NCBI GenBank assembly: GCA_902812335.1
Contig: CADDZL010000002.1
Location: 1 to 47,355 of the forward strand
DNA length: 47,355 nt
Direction of reading: 5' to 3'
DNA from: Chloroflexota bacterium
GTDB taxonomy: Bacteria > Chloroflexota > Anaerolineae > DSLN01
Under the pieces are notes generated by a model, which was given only the letters and a program-made list of their open reading frames with translations, made no database searches and had not been told where the DNA came from. Positions within the stretch are counted from its first letter, which is position 1; every line of letters begins with the position of its first letter. Both the position numbers and the translations under genes were made by a program. Positions 642 to 47,189 of the stretch are shown here, piece by piece.

Positions 642-1634
642 ATGAAATGCAAAAAGTGCGGTGAGACCGCCGCGATCAACATGCGCCAGCACAAGCTGGC
701 CCTATGCGCCGAACACTACCTCGAATGGCTGCCACAGCAAACGCAGCGCTTCATCGAGAAGTACCACATGTTCGGCCCTGAGGACCGTATCCTGGTCGCC
801 GTTTCCGGCGGCAAGGACAGTCTGAGCCTGTGGGACGTGCTCCTGCGCCTGGGCTATCGTGCCGATGGACTGTATATTGGTCTGGGCATTGACGGCGGCG
901 TGGATTATTCGCATCAGTCCTATGAAAAAGTCAAACAGTTCGTCGCCGAACGGTCCGGCCAGCACCCTGATATGCATCTGCGAGCGGTAGACGTGGGCCA
1001 AGTCTACGGCGCAACTGTACCGGAGGCGGCGCAGATCAGCAACCGGGGTCACGGCAAGCCGTGCTCGGTGTGTGGACTGATCAAGCGCCATATCATGAAC
1101 CGTGTCGCCTACGATGGTGGCTATGATGTTCTGGCGACGGGCCATAATCTCGACGACGAGGTGGCCGTCTTGATGCAGAACACCCTGCACTGGCAGGCCG
1201 GCTATCTGGCCCGCCAGGCACCGGTGCTGGAGGCATCGCGGCCCGGCCTGGCGCGCAAAGCCAAGCCGTTCTGCCGGTTTTATGAGCGCGAGACGGCTGC
1301 CTACGCCCTTCTGCGCGGTATTGACTATATCTATGATGAGTGCCCTTATGCCGAGGGCTCGAACACGATCTACTACAAGGGCTTGCTGAACCAGCTCGAA
1401 GCCGACCGGCCTGGCGCCAAGCTCCAATTCTACCTCGGTTTCCTCGAGGCCAAAGCCAGCGGCCTGTTTGACCGCGTCCAGGAAGAGGTCGAACTGAACG
1501 CCTGCGAGAAGTGTGGCCAGCCAACCAGCGCGCCGGGCGAGTGCGCCTTCTGCCGGCTATGGGAGCGGATAGCCGCCTATAAAGCCGAGGGCCGCCCGGT
1601 GAGATCACTTCCGGTGTACGCTAAGAGCCTATGA
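642..1634 (+). CDS. ttuA: TtuA-like tRNA 2-thiolation enzyme
   Basis: 330 residues, the usual size for TtuA. The N-terminal zinc site (CKKCG near 3-7, then C and H at LALCAEHYLEW) is followed by the PP-loop VAVSGGKDSLSLWD that adenylates the target uridine. CSVCG, ATGHNLDDEVAVL and a C-terminal zinc ribbon (CEKCG...CAFCRLW) match Thermus TtuA along the whole length. The family uses a Fe-S cluster and TtuB thiocarboxylate as sulfur donor to make 2-thioribothymidine-54, which stabilises tRNA at high temperature. Its stop overlaps the yhhQ start by 4 bases. Homologous Ncs6/TtcA enzymes lack this exact pairing with a TtuB, so TtuA is the best name; the modified position in this organism is inferred. 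Confidence 0.93.
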   Translation: MKCKKCGETAAINMRQHKLALCAEHYLEWLPQQTQRFIEKYHMFGPEDRILVAVSGGKDSLSLWDVLLRLGYRADGLYIGLGIDGGVDYSHQSYEKVKQFVAERSGQHPDMHLRAVDVGQVYGATVPEAAQISNRGHGKPCSVCGLIKRHIMNRVAYDGGYDVLATGHNLDDEVAVLMQNTLHWQAGYLARQAPVLEASRPGLARKAKPFCRFYERETAAYALLRGIDYIYDECPYAEGSNTIYYKGLLNQLEADRPGAKLQFYLGFLEAKASGLFDRVQEEVELNACEKCGQPTSAPGECAFCRLWERIAAYKAEGRPVRSLPVYAKSL

Positions 1635-2311
1635 CGACAGAGCGCAGCTACAAGTGGTTCCCCGCCGTCACAGCGGTCTTCGTTACCTGTCTGATCACCG
1701 CCAACATCATCGCGGTGAAGCCTGTAGCCATCGGCCCATTGCTCTTCCCGGCCGCGATTGTCATTTTCCCGCTCAGCTACATCTTCGGCGACATCTTGAC
1801 CGAGGTCTACGGCTACCAACGTGCCCGCCCCGTTATCTGGCTGGGCTTTATCTGCAATCTCATCGCCGTCATCGCCATCTGGGTGGCCGGACGGCTGCCG
1901 GCAGCCTCCTTCTGGGCGGACCAGCCCGCCTATGAAGCCATCCTCGGCTTCACGCCCCGACTGCTGGCGGCCTCGTTTATCGCCTACCTCGCCGGCGAGT
2001 TTCTCAATTCCTTTGTCCTCGCCAAGATGAAGATCGCGACGCGCGGGCGCTGGCTGTGGACGCGCACTATCGGCTCGACACTCGTCGGCCAGTTAGCCGA
2101 TTCGGCTGTATTCATCAGCCTGGCCTTCAGCGGTGTCTGGCCAGGGGATCAGATGCTGACGGCCATCGTGACCCAATGGTTGCTGAAAAGCATTTACGAG
2201 ACCCTGGCCACACCCGCGACTTATGCTGTGGTCGCCTTCCTGAAGCGGGCTGAGCATGAGGATTACTATGACTACGACACCGACTTCAACCCGTTCCGGC
2301 TTGAAGCCTGA
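1631..2311 (+). CDS. yhhQ: YhhQ family queuosine precursor transporter
   Basis: 226-residue integral membrane protein of the VUT/YhhQ family, with about six hydrophobic segments and the family signature FPLSYIFGDILTEVYGYQRA near residues 45-65. YhhQ imports preQ0/preQ1 as queuosine precursors. It overlaps ttuA by 4 bases and is overlapped by queF for 44 bases, so the three are probably translationally coupled. The pairing with QueF suggests salvage of preQ0 followed by reduction to preQ1. Substrate is inferred from family and neighbour. Confidence 0.9.
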   Translation: MTTERSYKWFPAVTAVFVTCLITANIIAVKPVAIGPLLFPAAIVIFPLSYIFGDILTEVYGYQRARPVIWLGFICNLIAVIAIWVAGRLPAASFWADQPAYEAILGFTPRLLAASFIAYLAGEFLNSFVLAKMKIATRGRWLWTRTIGSTLVGQLADSAVFISLAFSGVWPGDQMLTAIVTQWLLKSIYETLATPATYAVVAFLKRAEHEDYYDYDTDFNPFRLEA

Positions 2312-2714
2312 AGAGGCCGCCGATCTGACCCTGCTGGGGCGCACGGTAACCGAGCCGGTGCGCAAACTGGAGACGTTCCCCAACCGTCACCCTGGCCGCC
2401 CCTACACCGTCACCCTGGTCTGCCCGGAATTCACCTGCATTTGCCCGATGACCGGCCAGCCCGATTTCGCTACGATCACAATCCGCTATATCCCAGATCG
2501 GCGCATCCTGGAATCCAAGTCGCTCAAGCTCTACCTGTGGTCCTTCCGCAACGAAGGCCACTTCCATGAACACGTGACGAATATGATCCTGGATGACCTG
2601 GTGGCAGCGCTCGATCCCATCCGCTGTGAGGTCATTGGCGCCTTCAACGTGCGCGGTGGCATCTCGATCACGGTCGAGGCCAGGTATGAACGGCCAACCG
2701 AGGGTAAGGCGTAA
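2268..2714 (+). CDS. queF: QueF, NADPH-dependent preQ0 reductase
   Basis: About 148 residues, the short unimodular (T-fold) QueF. It reduces the nitrile of 7-cyano-7-deazaguanine (preQ0) to the aminomethyl group of preQ1 in queuosine synthesis. The motif CPMTGQPDFATI contains the active-site Cys and Asp; ESKSLKLYLWSFRNEGHFHE is the family substrate/NADPH signature. ATG 2268 is chosen because GAGG at 2258-2261 is well placed; ATG 2256 in the same frame is possible and adds four residues. The start lies inside yhhQ. The other queuosine enzymes (tgt, queA, queG/queH) are outside this window. Confidence 0.93.
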   Translation: MTTTPTSTRSGLKPEEAADLTLLGRTVTEPVRKLETFPNRHPGRPYTVTLVCPEFTCICPMTGQPDFATITIRYIPDRRILESKSLKLYLWSFRNEGHFHEHVTNMILDDLVAALDPIRCEVIGAFNVRGGISITVEARYERPTEGKA

Positions 2715-15048: not shown

Positions 15049-15080
15049 GAGCGATTTTCAAGAACGACGTAAAGCTGGTG

Positions 15081-15086
15081 TACAAT
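15081..15086 (+). promoter_or_regulatory. -10 element for a probably leaderless glycosyltransferase mRNA
   Basis: TACAAT at 15081-15086 ends 6 bases before ATG 15093, so transcription would start at or next to the start codon. The upstream hexamer TTCAAG at about 18 bases is only a weak -35. No ribosome site precedes ATG 15093, which fits a leaderless transcript. Confidence 0.5.
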
Positions 15087-15092
15087 CTGGGT

Positions 15093-16202
15093 ATGCGCAT
15101 CTGGCTGATCGAACCGTACTTCACCGGCTCTCACGCTGCCTGGGCCGAGGGTTACAGGCAACACAGCCGCCACCAGGTCAGCTTGTTTCGGCTTGCAGGC
15201 GCCTTCTGGAAATGGCGGATGCACGGCGCTGCAGTGACATTGGCGCGGCTGGTGCGCGAGCGAGACGAGGAACCTGACCTGTTGCTGGTGACCGACATGC
15301 TCAACCTGCCGACCTTTCTGGGCTTATCGCGTGACCGGTTGAGCCGGCTGCCGGTGGCACTGTACTTCCACGAGAACCAATTAACCTATCCCTTACAGCC
15401 TGGGGAGAAGCGCGATCTGACCTATGGTTTCATCAACTTCACCAGTGCGCTGGCTGCCGACCGTGTGTTCTTCAACTCGCGCTACCATCTGGAGAGCTTC
15501 TTCCAGGAATTGCCCCGCCTGCTCAAGCATTTTCCGGATCACAACGAACTGTGGACTGTGGCGGCCATTCGCGCCAAGAGCCAGGTGCTGCCGGTGGGCG
15601 TAGACTTGCGCCGCCTCGATCGGGGAGATACCCAGGAGAGCCGGCATGAGCCGGCTGGAAAGTCTGCCCCACTGATCCTGTGGAACCAGCGCTGGGAATA
15701 CGACAAGAACCCGGCTGAGTTCTTCCGGGCGCTCTATGTGCTGGCGGAGCGGGGGCTGGATTTCCAGGTCGCGCTATGCGGTCAGAATTATCGTCTGGTC
15801 CCAACCGAATTCGAAGAGGCGCGACAGCGGTTAGGCCATCGGATCGCGCAGTACGGCTATGTCAATGACGATGACTATGCGAAAGTTCTGTGGCGGACGG
15901 ATATCGTCGTCAGCACCGCCCTGCACGAGTTCTTCGGTGTAGCCCTGGTTGAGGCGCTCTACTGCGGCGCTTTCCCTGTCCTCCCCCACCGACTGACTTA
16001 TCCCGATCTCCTGCCAGCCACCGTGCACAGCCTATGCCTGTACACGGACTTCGATGGCCTGGTTGAGCGCCTGGCCTGGGCACTCACGCATATCGAAGAG
16101 GCCCGCGCCATATCCTTGCGTGAGGTAGCCGCTGGCTATGACTGGGCTGTACTCGCCCCCCTCTATGACGCGGCCCTGGCCGAGGTGGCATGCTCAAGCT
16201 AG
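15093..16202 (+). CDS. DUF3524/GT4-type glycosyltransferase, GTDC1 (tRNA-queuosine mannosyltransferase)-like
   Basis: 369 residues. The N-terminal part (IEPYFTGSHAAWAEGY, WKWRMHGAAVTLA, YFHENQLTYPLQPGEKRD, VFFNSRYHLESFF) is the DUF3524 domain, and matches recalled vertebrate GTDC1 motif by motif. The C-terminal GT-B donor domain has WNQRWEYDKNPAEFF, GYVNDDDYAKVL and STALHEFFGVALVEALYCG, the retaining E-x7-E type site. GTDC1 (QTMAN) is established as the enzyme that mannosylates queuosine-34 of cytosolic tRNA-Asp. That the bacterial protein acts on tRNA queuosine is inference, helped by queF and yhhQ 12 kb away. ATG 15093 is chosen over GTG 15078, which lies before the -10 box. Its end overlaps the convergent cold-shock gene by 9 bases. 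Confidence 0.85.
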   Translation: MRIWLIEPYFTGSHAAWAEGYRQHSRHQVSLFRLAGAFWKWRMHGAAVTLARLVRERDEEPDLLLVTDMLNLPTFLGLSRDRLSRLPVALYFHENQLTYPLQPGEKRDLTYGFINFTSALAADRVFFNSRYHLESFFQELPRLLKHFPDHNELWTVAAIRAKSQVLPVGVDLRRLDRGDTQESRHEPAGKSAPLILWNQRWEYDKNPAEFFRALYVLAERGLDFQVALCGQNYRLVPTEFEEARQRLGHRIAQYGYVNDDDYAKVLWRTDIVVSTALHEFFGVALVEALYCGAFPVLPHRLTYPDLLPATVHSLCLYTDFDGLVERLAWALTHIEEARAISLREVAAGYDWAVLAPLYDAALAEVACSS

Positions 16203-37103: not shown

Positions 37104-37352
37104 CTACTCTCCAGGGTCATTGCGACCCATGTTCATATCCGCATAGCTGATGTAGTAGGGCAAGTTAATCGCGCCCGTCGGACAGATTTCTTCACACCTC
37201 GCCGAGTATATGCAGTTCTCCGGCCACGTGATAAAGGCCAGCTTGCCCACCAACGCCAGCGCCTGCGTGGGGCAGTGGATGACACACACGCCGCAGCCAT
37301 TGCAGCGTTCCGGGTCAATCTCCGGCAACAGCCATTCATTTGTCCGTTCCAA
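37104..37352 (-). CDS. Ferredoxin with two Fe-S motifs, one Cys replaced by Ser
   Basis: 82 residues from TTG 37352, which has GGGAGG 7 bases upstream. The longer open frame to 37532 would run through the tRNA gene and is rejected. First cluster: CNGCGVCVIHCP, complete. Second: CIYSARCEEICP, in which the expected second Cys is Ser (codon TCG), so it may hold a 3Fe-4S cluster or a Ser-ligated one. Likely electron carrier for the methyltransferase/DUF166 partners. A strong hairpin at 37382-37418 precedes it. Confidence 0.82.
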   Translation of the reverse strand: MERTNEWLLPEIDPERCNGCGVCVIHCPTQALALVGKLAFITWPENCIYSARCEEICPTGAINLPYYISYADMNMGRNDPGE

Positions 37353-37381
37353 AGCCACCTCCCGCCCCGCGCTTAAACCAA

Positions 37382-37418
37382 CCGCCTCACGGTCAGGGCC
37401 ATTGTAACCGTGAGGCGG
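37382..37418 (-). terminator. Strong hairpin between tRNA-Glu and the ferredoxin gene
   Basis: Perfect 12-base inverted repeat CCGCCTCACGGT (37382-37393) and ACCGTGAGGCGG (37407-37418), 13-base loop. On the minus strand it follows the tRNA gene by 28 bases and is followed by TTGGTTTAAG. Likely ends or trims the tRNA transcript; it also forms the leader of the ferredoxin mRNA if read through. Confidence 0.65.
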
Positions 37419-37446
37419 CGGGGCGTCTGTGACTTTGGTTGTGCAG

Positions 37447-37519
<73 letters not shown>

Positions 37520-37547
37520 TTAGCGACGTCAATCCTCGATTGCTCGC

Positions 37548-37773: not shown

Positions 37774-38280
37774 ATGGATGAAGCCATAGCTGAACCGAGT
37801 GGGCCGCGCCCGCGGCCCGGCTGGCACCGGGTTCTGCCGCCATTCTGGGCCATGATGATATTGGCCGCAGTTATCGGTGGCATCATTGGCCTGGGCGGCT
37901 ACACTTTCGTCTACGCCAACGGCTTCTCATATCTCTCCGATGATCCCAAAGCCTGCGTCAACTGCCATATCATGTGGGACGTGTATGATGGCTGGAACCA
38001 TAGCAGCCACAAGGCTGTGGCTACCTGCAATGATTGCCATGTGCCTCACACCCTCGTGGCCAAGTATGCCATCAAGGCGCTGAGCGGCATAAACCACAGC
38101 ACCGCCTTCACCACCGGCAACTTCCCGGAGCCGATTCGCATCAACTCGCGTGACCGTGCTATCGCGCAGCAGAACTGCCTGTACTGCCATGGCGACCTGG
38201 TAACGCTCATCAGCCACCAGGACAGCCCTGATCCGACCGACTGTCTGACTTGCCATGGGACGGTAGGGCATGGGCGCTAA
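37774..38280 (+). CDS. nrfH: NrfH, cytochrome c nitrite reductase membrane subunit
   Basis: 168 residues. One N-terminal membrane anchor (about 24-46) and four haem c sites: CVNCH (residue 61), CNDCH, CLYCH and CLTCH. This is the NapC/NirT-family quinol dehydrogenase that passes electrons from menaquinol to NrfA. The first motif is followed by M (CHIMWD), in keeping with the Met-ligated first haem of NrfH. Ribosome site AAGGGGAGG precedes ATG 37774. nrfA begins 22 bases downstream of its stop. Confidence 0.95.
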   Translation: MDEAIAEPSGPRPRPGWHRVLPPFWAMMILAAVIGGIIGLGGYTFVYANGFSYLSDDPKACVNCHIMWDVYDGWNHSSHKAVATCNDCHVPHTLVAKYAIKALSGINHSTAFTTGNFPEPIRINSRDRAIAQQNCLYCHGDLVTLISHQDSPDPTDCLTCHGTVGHGR

Positions 38281-38302
38281 TCATACCCCTCAGGAGGCAA
38301 CA

Positions 38303-39613
38303 ATGACATCATCGGACCGTTCTCCCTGGACTCGCCGCAACATAGGCCTGCTGATCATCGCCTTTATCGTGGGTGCCGGCATTATGGGGGGTATCGCCGC
38401 CCTCCTGCTCAGCATCCAGGAGCGCAAAGTCGAGGCACAGCAGTACCCCCTCAAGGTGGTTGAGATCTCGAAGAATGAGCTCGATCCAGCCGTCTGGGGT
38501 CGCAATTTCCCCCGCGAATACGATTCCTTTCTGAAAACTTCCACTGATACAATCACAACAACCTATGGAGGCTCCGTCCCCTACAGCAAGCTGGAACGTG
38601 ACCCGGCCCTGGTGCGCCTCTACGCTGGCTACCCCTTCAGCGTGGACTATAACGAGGAACGGGGGCATTACTATGCACTCATTGACCAAAAGAAGACCAA
38701 GCGCCAGGAAGTGGTCAAGCAGCCGGGGGCCTGCGCCAACTGCCATGCCGCCGAAGCGCCGCAACTAATCGCCGAGATGGGTTGGGAGAATTTCAATCAT
38801 ACTCCGTATAAGGAACTCCAGGACCGACTGCACACGGGGACCTCCTGCGCCGACTGCCATGATCCGGAGACCATGAACCTGCGCATCACCCGACCGGCCT
38901 TTATCAACGCCATGACCGCGCGGGGCATTGACCTGAACCAAGCCACCCGCCAGGAGATGCGCACCTATGTCTGTGCTCAATGCCATGTCGAGTATTACTT
39001 CCAAGGGGACAACAAAGTCCTGACCTTCCCCTGGAGTCAGGGGCTGACGATTGATGACATTGACGCCTATTACGAGAAGATCGGTTTCAAAGACTGGACG
39101 CATCAAGAGAACGGTGCACCCATGATCAAGATTCAGCACCCCGAGTTCGAGATGTGGAGCACGGGCATTCACGCCCGGTCGGGGGTCTCCTGCGCTGATT
39201 GCCACATGCCCTATATACGCGATGGCGCAATCAAGGTGTCCGATCACTGGGTGCGCAGCCCGCTGACCAACATCAACCAGGCCTGCCAGACCTGCCACAG
39301 GGAGAGTGAGCAGGAACTGAAAGATCGGGTGATCTCGATTCAGGACCGCACGGCTGAACTACTGCGCCGCACCGAAGCAGCCCTGCTGGATGCCAGCGAC
39401 GCCATCATGGCCGCGCAAAAGGCTGGGGCCAGCGATGCCGACCTGGCCACAGCTCGCCAGGACTACCGTCGTGGCTCCATGCGCTGGGACTTCGTCTCAT
39501 CCGAGAACAGCATGGGCTTTCACAGCCCACAGGAAGCGGCGCGCGTCCTGGCCACGGCGATTGACCTCGCACGCCAGGCCCAACTGGAGGCCCAGCGGGT
39601 GATGCCGCACTGA
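38303..39613 (+). CDS. nrfA: NrfA, ammonia-forming cytochrome c nitrite reductase
   Basis: 436 residues from ATG 38303 (AGGAGG upstream). An uncleaved-looking N-terminal membrane segment is followed by five haem sites: CANCH 144, CADCH 182, CAQCH 224, CADCH 297, CQTCH 328. The first, which is the catalytic haem, has His in place of the usual Lys (CxxCK), placing it in the CxxCH subgroup of NrfA. Active-site Tyr (TYVCAQCHVEYYF region) and His (KIQHPEFE) are present. Reduces nitrite to ammonium with six electrons outside the membrane. A good terminator follows. Confidence 0.95.
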   Translation: MTSSDRSPWTRRNIGLLIIAFIVGAGIMGGIAALLLSIQERKVEAQQYPLKVVEISKNELDPAVWGRNFPREYDSFLKTSTDTITTTYGGSVPYSKLERDPALVRLYAGYPFSVDYNEERGHYYALIDQKKTKRQEVVKQPGACANCHAAEAPQLIAEMGWENFNHTPYKELQDRLHTGTSCADCHDPETMNLRITRPAFINAMTARGIDLNQATRQEMRTYVCAQCHVEYYFQGDNKVLTFPWSQGLTIDDIDAYYEKIGFKDWTHQENGAPMIKIQHPEFEMWSTGIHARSGVSCADCHMPYIRDGAIKVSDHWVRSPLTNINQACQTCHRESEQELKDRVISIQDRTAELLRRTEAALLDASDAIMAAQKAGASDADLATARQDYRRGSMRWDFVSSENSMGFHSPQEAARVLATAIDLARQAQLEAQRVMPH

Positions 39614-39668
39614 GCGGAGGGCGCAGCAACAACCGAACCTGAAGCCGAATCGTGAGGCTGGACGAACG

Positions 39669-39716
39669 AAGCCCTGCGGGCTGGCGGAAGCATCCTGCGC
39701 CCGGCGGGGCTTTGTT
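39669..39716 (+). terminator. Terminator after nrfA
   Basis: Arms AAGCCCTGCGGGC (39669-39681) and GCGCCCGGCGGGGCTT (39697-39712), pairing with one bulge, followed by TTTGTT. Separates nrfHA from the CRISPR operon. Confidence 0.7.
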
Positions 39717-39724
39717 CATTCAAT

Positions 39725-39752
39725 TTGCATTCTGGGACAGTTGCAGTACACT
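39725..39752 (+). promoter_or_regulatory. Possible promoter for the csm operon
   Basis: TTGCAT at 39725-39730, 16-base spacer, TACACT at 39747-39752. Leader of about 177 bases before csm1. The 323-base gap 39614-39936 otherwise holds the nrfA terminator and the palindrome at 39874-39889. Confidence 0.45.
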
Positions 39753-39873
39753 CACGACATCTTCTCCTCTGCGTGAGGTGAGTCCGAGTGCGCCCACACC
39801 GCTGAACGTCGAGCAATACATATGCGCCTGTGGGCATTCAGATGAGGTTTCTCCGCATAAATGGTCTACTACA

Positions 39874-39889
39874 CAAGGGAGTTCCCTTG
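39874..39889. promoter_or_regulatory. Operator-like palindrome before csm1
   Basis: CAAGGGA-GT-TCCCTTG, perfect 7-base arms with only 2 bases between, too tight for an RNA hairpin and typical of a dimeric repressor site. It lies 47 bases before ATG 39937. Confidence 0.45.
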
Positions 39890-39936
39890 GCCGCTTTCCT
39901 GCACCTCTATGGCCGGCGCAACAAGGAGGCAAGCGC

Positions 39937-42492
39937 ATGAGCGATGACAATCTACAGCGGAATACATACCAGGAGAACGTGTGGCAGACGGCGCTAGCAG
40001 GGCTGCTGCATGACATCGGCAAGTTCGCGCTGCGGGCTGACGTGGGCAAGCGGGAGATAACTGACCACGAATCGCTAGGCGAAGTGAAGTACGAGCACGC
40101 GCTGTACAGCGACAGCTTCGTCCAGGAGTATCTGCCAGCAGAATGGCGCAGCAGAGTCACAGCGCCGCGACGGCACCACAACCCTCAATCTGACCAGGAT
40201 TACCAAGTGCAACTGGCCGACTGGCTTTCATCAGGCGAGCGCGAGGAGGGCGAGGACAACAAGGTACCTTACCTGCTGTCGATCTTTGCGCGCCTGGCCG
40301 GCCATAACGCCCGTGCCTATGTGCCGCTGGCCCGCCTGAACCCGGCGCAGGGCCATATTTTTCCTACCCTGGGTGAGCCGGGCGGCTGGCGTCGTGAGTA
40401 CCGTGACCAGTACAAGGCCCTATGGGACGAATTCACTGCGGAGTGCAAGCGGCTGCCGGTTGACAGCCTGGTGACGTTCCTGGAATCGTTGTATGGTCTG
40501 CTGCAGGAATTCACTTGGTGTATTCCCTCGGCCTATTATGGGAATGTGCCGGACGTCAGCCTGTTTGACCATGCGCGGACGACGGCGGCGTTGGCGGCGT
40601 GCCTGGCGGCCGACGGGCGCGACGGCGCGTGGTGTCGGCGCGTCACCGACGATTTGAAGGCGAAGCAAGGCGACGAAGAGGTGTGCTTGCTCGTGGGCGG
40701 CGATCTCTCGGGCGTGCAGGCGTTTCTCTACACGCTGGCTTCCGCTGGTGCGGCCAGGTCGCTGCGGGCGCGCTCGTTCTATTTGCAATTACTGACCGAA
40801 GTAGTGGCCCAGTACGTGCTGGACGAGTTGGACCTGCCGATCACGAATCTGCTATATGCTGGCGGAGGCAATTTTCTTCTTCTGGCCCCAGTCATGCAAG
40901 ATGGCAGGCTGCAACGCTCTCGGGCTGAAATCAGTCAGAAGCTGATGGCCGCGCACGATGGCGCATTGCATCTGACACTGGCCGCTGTGCCAGTGCAGGC
41001 AGGTGAGTTTGGATACGGCCACTTTTACCAGGTATGGGACAGGCTGCAGCAGCGGCTGGCCGTTGAGAAACGCCGTCCTCTGGCTGACCTCGATCCGGCA
41101 CAGTTGGCGCAAGAGATAGGTGGCCCTGGCGGTGAGGGCGGCAGCACTGACAGGGTATGCAACGTGTGCGGACGGGAAAGCAGGCGCGCCATCCCGGCGG
41201 ACAAGGACGGAGTTCGTAAGTGCCTCTTTTGCGCCAGCCTAGAGGACCTGGGCGCGCAGCTCTCACGTGCGACCCATCTGGTCTGGCTTAAGTCGTCCCC
41301 TCAGGCCTCGATAAGCAAAGAGCCAGCCGAGTGGTGGCGCACCATGATGACCTTTGGTGTGAATATCTACGCCATCAGCGCTAACGAGCCACCCAAGAGC
41401 ACTGGCTATATCGGCTACTGGCCCAAGCAGTTGGAGATCATCCGCGTCAACCCATTGTCAACGGGGGCACGTTACGCCACCACTCTTCAGAAGGAATTGG
41501 GTGAGTCAGGCGCGCCGGTAGTGAACGCCTACCGCCCCTTTGCACAGCTTACTCCATTTAAGGATCGGCGGGTCATGACATTCGATGAACTGGCTCAGGC
41601 AAGCCGGGGCATCACCCGCTGGGCTGTATTGCGTATGGACGTGGATAACCTGGGGGATACCTTCCGTGACGGCTTTAAGCAGGGTGATAAGAATATCCTG
41701 ACGCTTTCACGCGTGGCGGCTTTATCGTTCGCGCTGCGCTTGTTCTTCGAGGGCTGGTTACCTAGGCTGGGTGAACGCGGCTGGCGCCATGCTCAGGAAG
41801 ACGACCCGGCTGGCGGGCGTATTCGCGAGAACACGTTATACGTGCAATACGCGGGCGGCGACGATCTATTCGTCGTAGGCGCATGGGATGCGCTCCCTGA
41901 GTTTGCGACGCGCATCCGTGAGTCATTCCGCGCTTACGCCTGCAACAACCCAGCCATTAGCATCTCAGCCGGCATCACGCTGGCCGATGAGAAATTCCCG
42001 CTCTATCTGGCAGCGGAACAGGCGGCTGAGGCTGAACATGCGGCTAAGAGCTTCATCCGCCCGGATGGTCGAGGTAAAGATGCGGTGTGCTTCTTAGGGC
42101 AGACGGTCGGCTGGGAGCAGTTTTACGCAGCCCGCCACCGTGCTCACTTAATGGCGGGTTGGTGTGACGGTTCTGAGGGCGAGCCATTGCCCAAGTCGAT
42201 TATCCAATCGTTCCTGGCGATTGACGCCGAGTTCCAGCGGGGCCCGGTCGAGAAAGGTCGCTTCCCCAGCGCGGGCAAGCGGCGCAGCCAGTTCTACTAT
42301 GGGCCGTGGGTATGGCATGCAGCCTACAGGCTGACCCGCACGATCGCAGCGCTCAGCCGCGCGCCGCAGGTAGCTGGGACATTGAAGCAATGGGAGGAAG
42401 AGCTATTGAACCCAGACACGCATCTGATCGCCATTATAGGACTTTCCGCCCGCTGGGCGGAACTGTTGACACGAAAGGAGAGCAGACGATGA
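39937..42492 (+). CDS. csm1: Type III-A Cas10 (Csm1)
   Basis: 851 residues from ATG 39937 (AAGGAGG upstream; the frame is open to 39652 but that part reads as leader). HD nuclease motif GLLHDIGKF (H25, D26); a zinc finger with CNVCG (408) and CLFC (429); first Palm LRMDVDNLGDTFRDG; second Palm with AGGDDLF, GGDD at residues 640-643. HD supports single-strand DNA cleavage; GGDD supports cyclic oligoadenylate synthesis on target RNA binding. Large subunit of the Csm complex. Overlaps csm2 by 4 bases. Confidence 0.96.
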   Translation: MSDDNLQRNTYQENVWQTALAGLLHDIGKFALRADVGKREITDHESLGEVKYEHALYSDSFVQEYLPAEWRSRVTAPRRHHNPQSDQDYQVQLADWLSSGEREEGEDNKVPYLLSIFARLAGHNARAYVPLARLNPAQGHIFPTLGEPGGWRREYRDQYKALWDEFTAECKRLPVDSLVTFLESLYGLLQEFTWCIPSAYYGNVPDVSLFDHARTTAALAACLAADGRDGAWCRRVTDDLKAKQGDEEVCLLVGGDLSGVQAFLYTLASAGAARSLRARSFYLQLLTEVVAQYVLDELDLPITNLLYAGGGNFLLLAPVMQDGRLQRSRAEISQKLMAAHDGALHLTLAAVPVQAGEFGYGHFYQVWDRLQQRLAVEKRRPLADLDPAQLAQEIGGPGGEGGSTDRVCNVCGRESRRAIPADKDGVRKCLFCASLEDLGAQLSRATHLVWLKSSPQASISKEPAEWWRTMMTFGVNIYAISANEPPKSTGYIGYWPKQLEIIRVNPLSTGARYATTLQKELGESGAPVVNAYRPFAQLTPFKDRRVMTFDELAQASRGITRWAVLRMDVDNLGDTFRDGFKQGDKNILTLSRVAALSFALRLFFEGWLPRLGERGWRHAQEDDPAGGRIRENTLYVQYAGGDDLFVVGAWDALPEFATRIRESFRAYACNNPAISISAGITLADEKFPLYLAAEQAAEAEHAAKSFIRPDGRGKDAVCFLGQTVGWEQFYAARHRAHLMAGWCDGSEGEPLPKSIIQSFLAIDAEFQRGPVEKGRFPSAGKRRSQFYYGPWVWHAAYRLTRTIAALSRAPQVAGTLKQWEEELLNPDTHLIAIIGLSARWAELLTRKESRR

Positions 42493-42971
42493 GCGACTTT
42501 GACAGGAATCGCGAGCAGGCCCGCCGGCGCGGGGACCCGCCTCCGGCTGGAGGCGGCGATCGACTTCACCACGTGAAGAAGATCATCAGCACAGATGATC
42601 CACAACTGCTGGTCAGACAGGCCGAAGAGATCGGCCGGCAGGTGGCCGAGGCCAGGTTGACGACCAGTCAGATTCGCAACGTGTATGGGCCGGTGCGCCA
42701 GATCGAATTAACCTGGCCGGAGACCATCCAAACGGAGGAGGATCGGCGAAACGCGAACGTGGCATATCGGCAAGCGATCCTGCTCAAGCCCAAGATGGGC
42801 TACCTGGCTGCGCGTGAGAAGAAACTAGCGGACCTGGAGCAGATCTTCAGCGCAGCCATTGACGAGATCAGCCAGGCAGCAGATCAGGGCGAGCGACGGG
42901 TTCGCTTCAGGCGGTTCGTGGAGTTCTTCGAGGCCATCCTGGCCTATCATAAGAAATATGGTGGCAAGTAG
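42489..42971 (+). CDS. csm2: Csm2, small subunit of the type III-A complex
   Basis: 160 residues, mostly helical, as expected for Csm2, which lines the target RNA groove of the complex. Recognised from ELTWPETIQ...LLKPKMGYLAAR and RFVEFFEAILAYHKKYGGK at the end, plus its fixed place between csm1 and csm3. Start ATG 42489 overlaps the csm1 TGA. The first 30 residues are charged and Pro/Gly-rich. Confidence 0.9.
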   Translation: MSDFDRNREQARRRGDPPPAGGGDRLHHVKKIISTDDPQLLVRQAEEIGRQVAEARLTTSQIRNVYGPVRQIELTWPETIQTEEDRRNANVAYRQAILLKPKMGYLAAREKKLADLEQIFSAAIDEISQAADQGERRVRFRRFVEFFEAILAYHKKYGGK

Positions 42972-42980
42972 GAGGGCGCC

Positions 42981-43766
42981 ATGGACGGGAGAACCATTCA
43001 ACTCTACGGTCGGATCATTCTGCGCGGCGACATCCGCGCGCTGTCCGGTCTGCACATCGGCACATCGAAAGACACGGTGGGGATCGGTGAGGTGGATTTG
43101 CCGGTAATCCGCGATGCCTACCGTCGGCCCTATGTGCCAGGCTCGTCGCTCAAAGGCAAGATGCGCTCGCAGTGGGAGAAGCTGAAAGGCGTACAGCAGA
43201 ACCAGCAGATCGGCAGAGTCGAGGGCAAAGAGGTCTGGATTCATGCTTGTGAGGACTTGGCCTGCCCGGTCTGTACGATCTACGGCGTGACCGGCGACTT
43301 TGCCAAAGACGCTCCCACCCGGCTGGCGGTGCGCGACGTTCCGCTCAAGCCGGAGAGCCTGGAAGGCACGACGGCGATTCTGTACTCCGAGGTTAAGTGG
43401 GAAGTGGCGATTGACCGCGTGACCAGTGCGGCGTCCCCGCGACAGATGGAGCGGGTACCCGCCGGCGCGGTGTTTAGCCCAATGGAACTGGTCTTCAGCG
43501 TGTACAAGGCGGCCGACCGGGCCCGCTTCGGCGACGTGCTCACCGGCCTGCAACTGGTGGCAGATGACTACCTGGGTGGCCAGGGTAGCCGGGGCAGCGG
43601 CAAAGTCGCATTTGAAGACCTGTCGGTGACGCTCAAGACAGGCGATGAGTACCGTGAGGAGACCCACCCCAGCTTCAGTCACAAATCGCTGGAAGAGCTG
43701 ATCGCGGCCCGGGCTGAGTTGCTCAAGTGGATCGAGGAGCACATCGCGGTCAATGGAGGTGCGTAA
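42981..43766 (+). CDS. csm3: Csm3, backbone RAMP of the type III-A complex
   Basis: 261 residues. RAMP fold with GLHIGTSKD, the loop IGEVDLPVIRD holding Asp39 (equivalent to the catalytic Asp that cuts target RNA every 6 bases), PYVPGSSLKGKMRSQWE and the glycine loop GGQGSRGSGKVAF near the end. CEDLACPVCTIYG is the usual Csm3 Cys motif. Multiple copies form the filament on crRNA. Stop and the csm4 start share TAATG. Confidence 0.96.
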   Translation: MDGRTIQLYGRIILRGDIRALSGLHIGTSKDTVGIGEVDLPVIRDAYRRPYVPGSSLKGKMRSQWEKLKGVQQNQQIGRVEGKEVWIHACEDLACPVCTIYGVTGDFAKDAPTRLAVRDVPLKPESLEGTTAILYSEVKWEVAIDRVTSAASPRQMERVPAGAVFSPMELVFSVYKAADRARFGDVLTGLQLVADDYLGGQGSRGSGKVAFEDLSVTLKTGDEYREETHPSFSHKSLEELIAARAELLKWIEEHIAVNGGA

Positions 43767-44863
43767 TGGCGATGGTGACGCTGCGGCTCAACGGGCCGTT
43801 TCACGTGGGGCAGGACACTGGCGCCGAGCGGCAGAAGGTCCATGCCTACATCCCATCGGACACACTATTCAGTGCACTGGTCACAGCCTGGGCGCAACTG
43901 GGCCGGGCCGATGAGGTGATCGAGCAATTTCGGGGTCAACCGCCGTTCACGTTGACCTCGGCGTTCCCCTGTCTGCTGGCGCGAACTGATCCTCCGCGAG
44001 CGCTGGTGCGCCTGTTGCCGCTGCCGCTGGTCAGACTGCCAGCCGATGAGTTGCTGCCACCCAGGCAGAAGAAGGGCATTCGTTGGGTGTCGTGGGGCGT
44101 GTTTGAAAAGCTCTGCGCCGCGCAGACACTTGAGGGTGAGACGAGTGAGGCAAACCGGGTCCAGGCTGGAACGGTTTGGCTCTTGCGAGAGGAGCGCGAA
44201 GCGATCAGCCGGGGCTGGGGACGCGAAGCCGATTCCGTGATATGGTGGGCGACGGAGGCAGTGCCGCGGGTAGTGGTAGACCGGGTCACCAGCGCGAGCA
44301 ATCTGTTCTATACTGGCCGGATGGCGTTAGCCGAGAACGTAGGGCTGTGGTTCGCCATCAGAGGTGAGGGCGGGGTGGAGGTGGCATCGCGTTGGTTGGA
44401 CCTGGTCGGACGGGCACTGCATGTGCTGGCCGATGCCGGCTTGGGGGGACTACGCAGTGCGGGCCACGGCGCATTTACGTGGGCATGGGACGATGGGCCA
44501 GCGCCCCTGCTAAGAGAAAGCCAGATCGAGGCAGGCTACGCTGTAACGTTGGCGCGCTACGCGCCAAAAGACGAGGTAGAAGTAGCTCGCTCACTGCAGG
44601 CGCGGGCTGCCAGCTATCAATTGGTCACTATCGCGGGCTGGTGCCAGGACGAGGCGCTGCATCCCTGGCGGCGCAAGCGCGTGCGGTTGGTGAGTGAAGG
44701 CAGCGTGATTGGCCGGCTGGAAGGGCCTATGGGCCGCCTAGTGGACGTGAGGCCTACCGGTGCGCCGCAGGCCAATTTCGGTGAGCGCGGCGTGTATCGT
44801 TACGGCTACGCCTTCCCGATGAGCGTGCGGCCCGAAGCGCTGCGGGAGGTGGCCCATGACTGA
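43766..44863 (+). CDS. csm4: Csm4, RAMP that binds the crRNA 5' tag
   Basis: 365 residues. Begins with the RAMP strand and HVGQDTGAERQKVHAYIPSD TLFSAL-type N-terminus, includes VDRVTSASNLFYTGR and ends with the glycine-rich loop GLGGLRSAGHGAF. In the complex, Csm4 caps the crRNA 5' end next to Csm1. TAATG coupling with csm3; overlaps csm5 by 8 bases. Confidence 0.93.
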   Translation: MAMVTLRLNGPFHVGQDTGAERQKVHAYIPSDTLFSALVTAWAQLGRADEVIEQFRGQPPFTLTSAFPCLLARTDPPRALVRLLPLPLVRLPADELLPPRQKKGIRWVSWGVFEKLCAAQTLEGETSEANRVQAGTVWLLREEREAISRGWGREADSVIWWATEAVPRVVVDRVTSASNLFYTGRMALAENVGLWFAIRGEGGVEVASRWLDLVGRALHVLADAGLGGLRSAGHGAFTWAWDDGPAPLLRESQIEAGYAVTLARYAPKDEVEVARSLQARAASYQLVTIAGWCQDEALHPWRRKRVRLVSEGSVIGRLEGPMGRLVDVRPTGAPQANFGERGVYRYGYAFPMSVRPEALREVAHD

Positions 44864-45950
44864 ACGCCTGGGGGTGAACTATGCGTTGGACATCGAAGTG
44901 CTGACGCCCTTGCATATCGGCTGCGGGCGTAAGCTAGTCCAGGGATTCGACTTTGCAGTGCAGAACGGGGTCACCTATCGGTTGAATGAAGATGCCATCC
45001 TGACCGACCGCTGGCCGGATGATCCGGCGTTGCAACGCAAGTTCCTGGGGCAACCGCTGGCGGACCTGCTCGAACGTGGCGATTATCAGGCCCACCCTGA
45101 GTACTTTCGCTACAGCCTGCGCGGCGAGCCGGCGATGCGCGAGATCATAGAGTGCATCCGTGATGTACACGGTCAGCCTTACCTGCCCGGCTCATCGCTG
45201 AAGGGTGCGCTGCGAACAGCGCTCTTGCGCGCGGCCACCGACAAGCAGGCCTTCAAGCGATCGGACTTCGGACCGGGAGGCGGGCCGAATGAAGCCAAAC
45301 AAGCCGCCAAAGGACTGGAGCAAGAGGTGCTGGGAAGGGATCCCAACCGCGATATTCTACGTGCGTTGATCGTGGGCGATAGCCAACCGATACCGATGGC
45401 AGCGCTCAGGTTGCAGCGTATCCAGATGGTGCCCGGCCTGAACATAGACGTCGAGGCCATCGCCCGCGGGACGCACCTGACGGCCACATTGCGCCTAGAC
45501 ACCTGGCTGCTGAAGCGCACGGAACGGGGGCTGGATTGGCCCCCACTGGTGCGACAAATCGTCAGGCAGGTGGCCCGGACCGCCCAGTTCGTGGCGCGGA
45601 GACGCATCGAGCACGAGTACCGGTACCATGAGAAACGCGGCGATCGGCAGGCGATGGGCTTTTATGCCAGCCTGGCCGAAGAGGCGGTGAGCGGCCACTG
45701 GCCTGAGAACGAGTTTCTGATTCAGGTAGGCTTTGGCACCGGCTGGCGGGCCAAGACCGTGCTGGGCGGGTTGGGCGACGCGGACCCGCTGCTGGCCACC
45801 GTCGTCCGCGACTTTCGCCTGGACCGGGGGGGAGGCAAGGCCAGCCGGGGCTATGTGAAAGGACAGCCGTTCCCCAAGGCGCGCCATCTGGCCTGGGTAG
45901 GGGGCAGTCCGGCGCTGCCGATGGGGTGGTTGCGAGTGAGGATGAGTTAA
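44856..45950 (+). CDS. csm5: Csm5, RAMP at the crRNA 3' end
   Basis: 364 residues. RAMP protein with LTPLHIGCGRKLVQGFDF at the front and PYLPGSSLKGALRTALLRA near residue 107, the usual Csm5 pattern, and a glycine-rich region near the end (GGGKASRGYVKG). It sits at the head of the complex and helps crRNA maturation. The TAA is followed directly by the ATG of the next gene. Confidence 0.93.
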   Translation: MTERLGVNYALDIEVLTPLHIGCGRKLVQGFDFAVQNGVTYRLNEDAILTDRWPDDPALQRKFLGQPLADLLERGDYQAHPEYFRYSLRGEPAMREIIECIRDVHGQPYLPGSSLKGALRTALLRAATDKQAFKRSDFGPGGGPNEAKQAAKGLEQEVLGRDPNRDILRALIVGDSQPIPMAALRLQRIQMVPGLNIDVEAIARGTHLTATLRLDTWLLKRTERGLDWPPLVRQIVRQVARTAQFVARRRIEHEYRYHEKRGDRQAMGFYASLAEEAVSGHWPENEFLIQVGFGTGWRAKTVLGGLGDADPLLATVVRDFRLDRGGGKASRGYVKGQPFPKARHLAWVGGSPALPMGWLRVRMS

Positions 45951-47189
45951 ATGTCAACGCTTTTGGTTATAACCGTAGGTGGCTCATGTGCACCGGTCAT
46001 CACGGCGGTGCGCGGTTATGCGCCAGATTTCGTCTGCTTCTTCGCCAGTGCCGGGCCACACGGCAGTCGTGTCATGGTGGACGGGCAAGGCCATCCATGC
46101 ACCTCCAATGGCGCCAACATCATCACCCAAACGGGACTGAGGCCGGAGCAGTTTGAGATCGTTGATCTGGCCGAACCGGACAGCCTGCCCGATTGTTACG
46201 CCGCGATGCGGGCTGCCCTGGCCCGCCTGGCCACTGACCGGCCTGGCTGGCGGCTGGTGGCTGACTACACCAGCGGCACCAAGACGATGAGCGTGGCGCT
46301 GTCGCTGGCTGCCCTGGAAGCCGGCTGGCAGCTTTCGCTGGTCCGGGGCACCCGCACCGACCTGGTGAAGGTGCTGAACGGCTCAGAGATGGCGGCACTG
46401 GTCAATGCCTGGGAGGTGCGCGCGGACCAGCAGATAAACGAGGCGCGGCGGCTGTTCAACGCTCACGCCTACGCTGCGGCAGGGGCGCTACTGGAGAGCC
46501 TGGCGCGCACCGGGCCACTTTCGTACGAGCTGCAACGGAGCGTCACCCGATGGGTCGGCCTGTGCCGCGCCTTTGACGCCTGGGACCGTTTCGATCACGC
46601 GCGGGCGCACCAATTGCTGGAGCCTTATCAAAGCCGCACTGTGCCCCAATGGCGTTTCCTCAAGGCCCTGATGGGATGGGAGCGGGCGACGGGCTATGAG
46701 CCAATCCTGGACCTGATGCGGAATGCCGAACGCCGGGCAGCGCGGGGCCGCTACGATGACGCCGTGGCGCGGCTATACCGGGCGCTGGAGATGCTGGCGC
46801 AAACTCGGCTGGGGGAGCGCACTCCGTCGCTGACAACGGGTGACCTGGACGTGAGCCTGTTGCCCGACGGCCTACGCAAGAAGTATGAGGCACTGCGCGA
46901 CCCATCGGATGGCAAAATCAAGCTCGGGCTACGCCAGGATTACGAGTTACTGGCTGAGTTGGATGACCCGCTGGGGCGCGTGTATCGGCAACACGAAAAC
47001 GCGCTGCTGAACGTGCTCAGCCGGCGCAACAACTCGATCCTGGCACATGGTAAGATACCGCTGACGAAGGGCGATTACCAGGAGGCGGCCCAGCTTATTG
47101 AGACGATGGTTAGGCAAGGACTGGGGGAACTGGGCGTGCGGTGGCAAGCGCCGCAGTTCCCCCAGTGGGATGACGTCAAGTGGGAGTGA
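45951..47189 (+). CDS. CARF-HEPN effector of the Cas02710/Csm6-like group
   Basis: 412 residues. The N-terminal CARF domain starts STLLVITVGGSCAP and has the ligand loop DYTSGTKTMSVAL (residues 105-117). A helical middle follows, then a C-terminal HEPN domain with RRNNSILAHG, giving R359-x6-H366 as the RNase pair. It fits the TIGR02710/Cas02710 family better than classical Csm6. Expected role: RNase switched on by cyclic oligoadenylate from Csm1. Directly follows csm5 and precedes cas6. Ligand size and RNA specificity are not evident. Confidence 0.85.
   Translation: MSTLLVITVGGSCAPVITAVRGYAPDFVCFFASAGPHGSRVMVDGQGHPCTSNGANIITQTGLRPEQFEIVDLAEPDSLPDCYAAMRAALARLATDRPGWRLVADYTSGTKTMSVALSLAALEAGWQLSLVRGTRTDLVKVLNGSEMAALVNAWEVRADQQINEARRLFNAHAYAAAGALLESLARTGPLSYELQRSVTRWVGLCRAFDAWDRFDHARAHQLLEPYQSRTVPQWRFLKALMGWERATGYEPILDLMRNAERRAARGRYDDAVARLYRALEMLAQTRLGERTPSLTTGDLDVSLLPDGLRKKYEALRDPSDGKIKLGLRQDYELLAELDDPLGRVYRQHENALLNVLSRRNNSILAHGKIPLTKGDYQEAAQLIETMVRQGLGELGVRWQAPQFPQWDDVKWE

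Follow-up and report, generated by a model that had tools for sequence, protein, structure and literature searches.

A QTMAN/GTDC1-family glycosyltransferase gene in a Chloroflexota bacterium as a candidate for queuosine-tRNA glycosylation

The gene and its product

The window (the whole stretch of DNA analysed, 47,355 nucleotides) contained an intact open reading frame of 369 codons on the forward strand at 15093-16202. This gene and the domains and motifs of its product were located as follows:

15093..16202, +: QTMAN/GTDC1-family glycosyltransferase gene, 369 aa (open reading frame, Pfam, family alignment, human GTDC1 match)
15096..15602, +: QTMAN_N domain, residues 2-170, acceptor-side Rossmann half of the GT-B fold (Pfam; model pLDDT 90.6)
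15369..15392, +: family signature HENQLTYP, residues 93-100 (no variation at HENQL, Y and P among 20 bacterial members)
15648..16091, +: Glycos_transf_1 donor-binding domain, residues 186-333 (Pfam)
15690..15707, +: R200...K205, candidate donor-phosphate binding pair (invariant in the family alignment)
15927..15953, +: EX7E motif of retaining GT4 enzymes, E279-FFGVALV-E287 (E287 invariant, E279 conserved in at least 90%)

The ATG at 15093 was the better start, since M1 was invariant in the alignment of the family and an alternative GTG at 15078 gained just five codons. A TACAAT box with TGGTG upstream (window 15079-15093) ended about 8 bases before this ATG, a position that would suit a leaderless transcript; the box had no score in the promoter scan.

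The Pfam model QTMAN_N (PF12038, formerly DUF3524) was matched over its full length (positions 1-168 of 168; E=1.9e-64; 217 bits against a cut-off of 25), confirming the assignment to the DUF3524/GTDC1 family made in an earlier sequence-only reading of this DNA. Glycos_transf_1 was matched in the C-terminal half (E=6.3e-11). Twenty Chloroflexota members were collinear end to end and shared 52 invariant columns, including HENQL-Y-P, WN-R...DK-P and FG....E. R200 and K205 would bind the donor phosphate as the corresponding pair does in GT4 enzymes. The source genome held one full-length copy of a QTMAN-type gene, and more than 500 relatives of the protein occurred in public genomes; together with the match scores, these relatives exclude a chance resemblance. 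The protein family is already known, and the Pfam family holds bacterial proteins by sequence. Judged by its sequence, in which all features tested were present, the product is a complete GT-B, GT4-type glycosyltransferase of the QTMAN family.

Predicted fold and relation to characterized glycosyltransferases

An AlphaFold2 model of the 369-aa protein was confident (pLDDT 90.6, pTM 0.89) and had the GT-B fold. Its best neighbours in the PDB were retaining GT4 enzymes (MshA, glycogen synthase and PimA; TM ~0.7), with BshA also among the fold neighbours. Donors used by these GT4 neighbours were UDP-Glc, UDP-GlcNAc, ADP-Glc and GDP-Man. No PDB homologue of QTMAN itself was found. The profile of bacterial members reached PimA, a GDP-Man enzyme, by sequence and ranked it high among named relatives.

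PimA (GDP-Man phosphatidylinositol mannosyltransferase, GT4; PDB 2gej/4n9w) shared the GT-B fold and the EX7E motif with the model. It differed in having 18% identity over the fold alignment, a sequence match in the C-terminal half only, no QTMAN_N signature and a lipid acceptor. MshA/BshA-type GT4 enzymes were the best neighbours at the fold level, but they showed 13-17% identity and act on small-molecule acceptors. The NCBIfam equivalogs HpsP, EpsE, MshA and BshA scored 10-39 bits, against cut-offs of 274-550.

Comparison with animal QTMAN

Animal QTMAN (GTDC1) is a tRNA-queuosine alpha-mannosyltransferase, according to the mention of Zhao et al. (2023, Cell) in PMC12313893. The human GTDC1 sequence used here was a provisional one, not a database record, and every comparison with it is provisional too. 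When it was compared by blastp, two segments aligned in the same order, one with 34% identity across 166 aa (E=3e-26) and the other with 40% across 161 aa (E=1e-37). The profile of 20 bacterial members gave it 285 bits. It retained 41 of the 52 residues that are invariant in the bacteria and differed at 11. As far as a provisional sequence allows, these results agree with the earlier statement that the protein follows vertebrate GTDC1 along its whole length.

The bacterial and animal proteins shared the domain order QTMAN_N plus GT domain, and HENQL-Y-P, R...K and EX7E were kept; the counterpart of HENQLTYP in the provisional human sequence was HENQLIYP. They differed in size (369 aa against 458 aa in human), the two human domains being separated by ~90 more residues, and in that the bacterial hosts themselves make or salvage queuosine (Q). 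In a tree of the family the provisional human sequence joined one long-branch member (L028), a grouping that we do not trust.

Queuosine genes of the window and the source genome

Two queuosine-related genes were present in the window:

1631..2311, +: queuosine precursor transporter (QPTR/YhhQ; TIGR00697 match)
2256..2714, +: QueF type II, preQ1 synthase (TIGR03139); the listed start overlaps the transporter, and translation may begin further in

A TtuA-like tRNA thiolation gene lay directly 5' of both, the three forming one apparent operon (642-2714). The sequence-only reading had pointed to the transporter and QueF as company for the glycosyltransferase gene. Both are indeed there, and they carry little weight as evidence: they lie ~12.4 kb upstream in another operon, and none of 80 other loci of the family had Q genes near the gene.

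Elsewhere in the source genome Tgt was found on C155, QueA on C67 and QueG on C3. The Tgt pocket was of the canonical preQ1 type (MALDEC...GGLSVGE). No true QueC was found in this genome; across the survey described below a true QueC occurred only in one genome (G206), the remaining matches being short PP-loop cross-matches. Because the genome has Tgt, QueA and QueG in addition to the QueF and QPTR of the window, Q is expected on the host tRNA, the likely route being import of preQ0/preQ1 followed by QueF, Tgt, QueA and QueG.

Gene neighbourhood

The gene at 15093-16202 is oriented away from nusA and towards a small cold-shock/zinc-finger gene. Within ~6 kb of the gene, none of the 80 other loci contained Tgt, QueA, QueF, QueG, QueH or the transporter (0/80), and a neighbourhood link to Q genes was therefore rejected. 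Immediate neighbours at these loci were unrelated, mixed housekeeping genes (e.g., cold-shock, SmpB, MutY/NUDIX); gyrA and rpoC lay near the gene in some Chloroflexota, as they do in the window. No glycan-synthesis neighbourhood was seen in the 80 loci. Unrelated neighbours speak against a polysaccharide-cluster function and give no positive link to Q. A mobile origin was also rejected, since plasmids and phages yielded no homologue at E<=1e-5.

In six Fidelibacterota loci (L126, L128, L139, L148, L171 and L172) the gene lay beside smpB and a gene that, judged by eye, resembles a tyrosyl-tRNA synthetase. tRNA-Tyr is a Q target.

Occurrence with queuosine pathways

Among 300 Chloroflexota genomes with a completeness of 90% or more, QTMAN_N was found in 39, Tgt in 239 and QueA in 173. 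Tgt was present in 38 of the 39 QTMAN carriers vs. 201 of 261 non-carriers, and QueA in 12 of 39 vs. 161 of 261, so that QueA alone was anti-correlated with the gene. The single carrier without Tgt (G297; a 4-contig, 95% complete assembly) had QueA, QueG and the transporter. Fisher tests of Tgt against the gene gave p=0.001 by genome, 0.13 by genus and 0.35 by family (family-level counts made by hand from the genome listing). For the check proposed earlier, co-occurrence with tgt and queA, the association with Tgt was too weak to serve as proof once kinship was counted. As Tgt is common anyway, its presence in carriers is permissive evidence.

The family was spread over about ten phyla and is not unique to the source lineage. 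A cross-phylum set of 50 carriers was drawn from ten phyla: Chloroflexota, KSB1, Calditrichota, Fidelibacterota, Bacteroidota, Thermodesulfobacteriota, Acidobacteriota, Actinomycetota, Bacillota, and Myxococcota. Tgt was detected in 45 of these carriers, QueA in 44, and one or the other in 49. The sequence-only reading had held that many carriers lacking any Q pathway would refute it. That situation did not arise: carriers with neither Tgt nor QueA numbered 0 of 39 in Chloroflexota and 1 of 50 in the cross-phylum set, the sole case being a MAG (G332). Cultured carriers included Geomonas silvestris and Thermohalobacter berrensis.

Tgt pocket types and the two predicted routes to queuosine

The Chloroflexota carriers divided by QueA status. 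Twenty-seven of the 39 were QueA-negative, and in all 27 the Tgt had the loop GGSLG in place of GGL[AS]VGE. In Chloroflexales-type families the Tgt also had Cys158->Leu and Gln203->His (Zymomonas numbering). QueH was found in 0 of the 27 and QueG in none of the subset tested for it, while a full-length QPTR was missing from most QueA-negative GGSLG carriers. The same loop occurred in a QueA-negative carrier of the cross-phylum set (Ardenticatena, G345).

QueA-positive carriers with a Tgt had the canonical pocket in 10 of 11 cases. The eleventh (G266) combined a GGSLG Tgt with a weaker QueA match and lacked both QueG and QueH. Of the 12 QueA-positive carriers, ten had Tgt and QueA together with QueG or QueH; G297 (no Tgt found) and G266 did not. 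With kinship ignored, QueA status and Tgt pocket were associated among carriers at p=2e-8 (Fisher).

Queuine-salvaging Tgts typically have a GG[LS][AS]G pocket, and the Val of GGLAVG blocks the cis-diol of queuine (PMC11570991). GGSLG likewise drops the blocking Val but differs literally from the published motif, so direct queuine salvage by GGSLG Tgts is a prediction. The gene therefore accompanies either route to Q, own synthesis or salvage, and its retention through a change of route is as expected if the acceptor is Q itself. Two genomes (G010 and G256) had a GGSLG Tgt without the QTMAN gene, which is thus optional.

Further Tgt types were noted in the survey. Loci L048, L053, L062 and similar (families f23 and f56) had GGSLG, FDELPP and IVHGG pockets, predicted to be of the queuine type, and came from Chloroflexota of which most had no full-length QPTR match. 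A divergent second Tgt paralogue (~270-316 bits on the Tgt model), with GGWPLDA vs. GGLAVGE, stood beside a normal Tgt in many Chloroflexota, at loci L071 (1501-2574), L072, L097, L098 and L099. Another pocket class, FDQPVP...GGLAGDE (L088 and L090-L094, mostly family f31), occurred in QueA-negative, QTMAN-negative genomes and matched the published queuine-salvage motif GGLAG.

Proposed function and alternatives

We consider it probable that the gene encodes a Q34-tRNA hexosyltransferase related to animal QTMAN/GTDC1 at the orthologue level; the sugar would most likely be mannose. In the proposed mechanism a retaining GT-B (GT4-type) enzyme would bind a nucleotide-sugar through the R...K and EX7E residues of its C-terminal half, GDP-mannose being the most likely donor. 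The N-terminal QTMAN_N half would place Q34 of the tRNA, and the sugar would be moved onto a hydroxyl of the queuosine cyclopentenediol. In the source organism the acceptor Q would come from preQ0/preQ1 imported by QPTR and processed by QueF, Tgt, QueA and QueG. While the fold prediction, the motifs, the family membership and the presence of Q genes are observed, we infer the Q-tRNA acceptor, mannose, the use of a cis-diol hydroxyl and tRNA-Asp as the target. The range of donors and acceptors used by GT4 enzymes in general is wide, a point against this reading.

A Q-tRNA glycosyltransferase that transfers another sugar (e.g., glucose, galactose or GlcNAc), or acts on a tRNA other than tRNA-Asp, is unlikely. 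The identity to the provisional human GTDC1 sequence is just 34-40%, 11 of the 52 bacterial invariants differ in that sequence, and the GT4 neighbours in the PDB use the four different donors listed above. Mannose is favoured by the donor-domain motifs, which are closest to human QTMAN (EFFGVA..EA.YCG), and by the high rank of PimA among the profile relatives.

We regard as improbable a GT4 enzyme that shares only its ancestry with QTMAN and glycosylates a non-tRNA acceptor such as a cell-wall glycan, a lipid, a small thiol or a pterin. Such a role would fit the ordinary GT4 domain of the C-terminal half, the MshA, BshA and PimA fold neighbours and the statistically weak Tgt co-occurrence. It fits poorly with a family-specific N-domain that carries HENQLTYP and is kept at full length from Chloroflexota to animals, with 80 loci devoid of glycan-synthesis neighbours, and with a route to Q in the carriers by either pathway.

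Transfer onto preQ1-tRNA or another deazaguanine instead of Q is very improbable: Bartonella, with Tgt as its sole gene of the pathway, shows that preQ1 can be the end product (PMC11570991), and the 27 carriers without QueA and QueH, with no QueG in the tested subset, might be read in that way, but preQ1 has no cyclopentenediol acceptor, the preQ1-type Val loop is gone from the Tgts of all 27, and ten of the 12 QueA-positive carriers have Tgt and QueA plus QueG or QueH.

Mannosyl- and galactosyl-queuosine (manQ and galQ) have been described as animal tRNA modifications of unclear function (PMC12518689). The searchable literature, in which few subscription papers are included, contained no report of glycosylated Q (manQ) in bacteria and no paper mentioning DUF3524. 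We lean towards the view that sugar-modified Q is widespread in bacterial tRNA, occurring across about ten phyla in both Q-completing and queuine-salvaging bacteria; this would place the animal enzyme in a family far older than animals, or far wider. With a QTMAN in bacteria, the modification could be studied by simple genetics, glycosylated Q would no longer be confined to animals, and Q synthesis or salvage would be followed by a further step. Cultured carriers (Geomonas, Thermohalobacter) bring this view within direct reach of nucleoside LC-MS.

Other features of the window

A type III-A CRISPR effector operon, Cas10/Csm1 to Csm6, occupied 39652-47189, and an NrfH/NrfA-like cytochrome pair (37774-39613) lay directly upstream of it. 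A tRNA-Glu(CUC) gene on the minus strand (37446-37519) overlapped the listed start of a ferredoxin-like open reading frame (37104-37532), the true start of which is for this reason probably further in.
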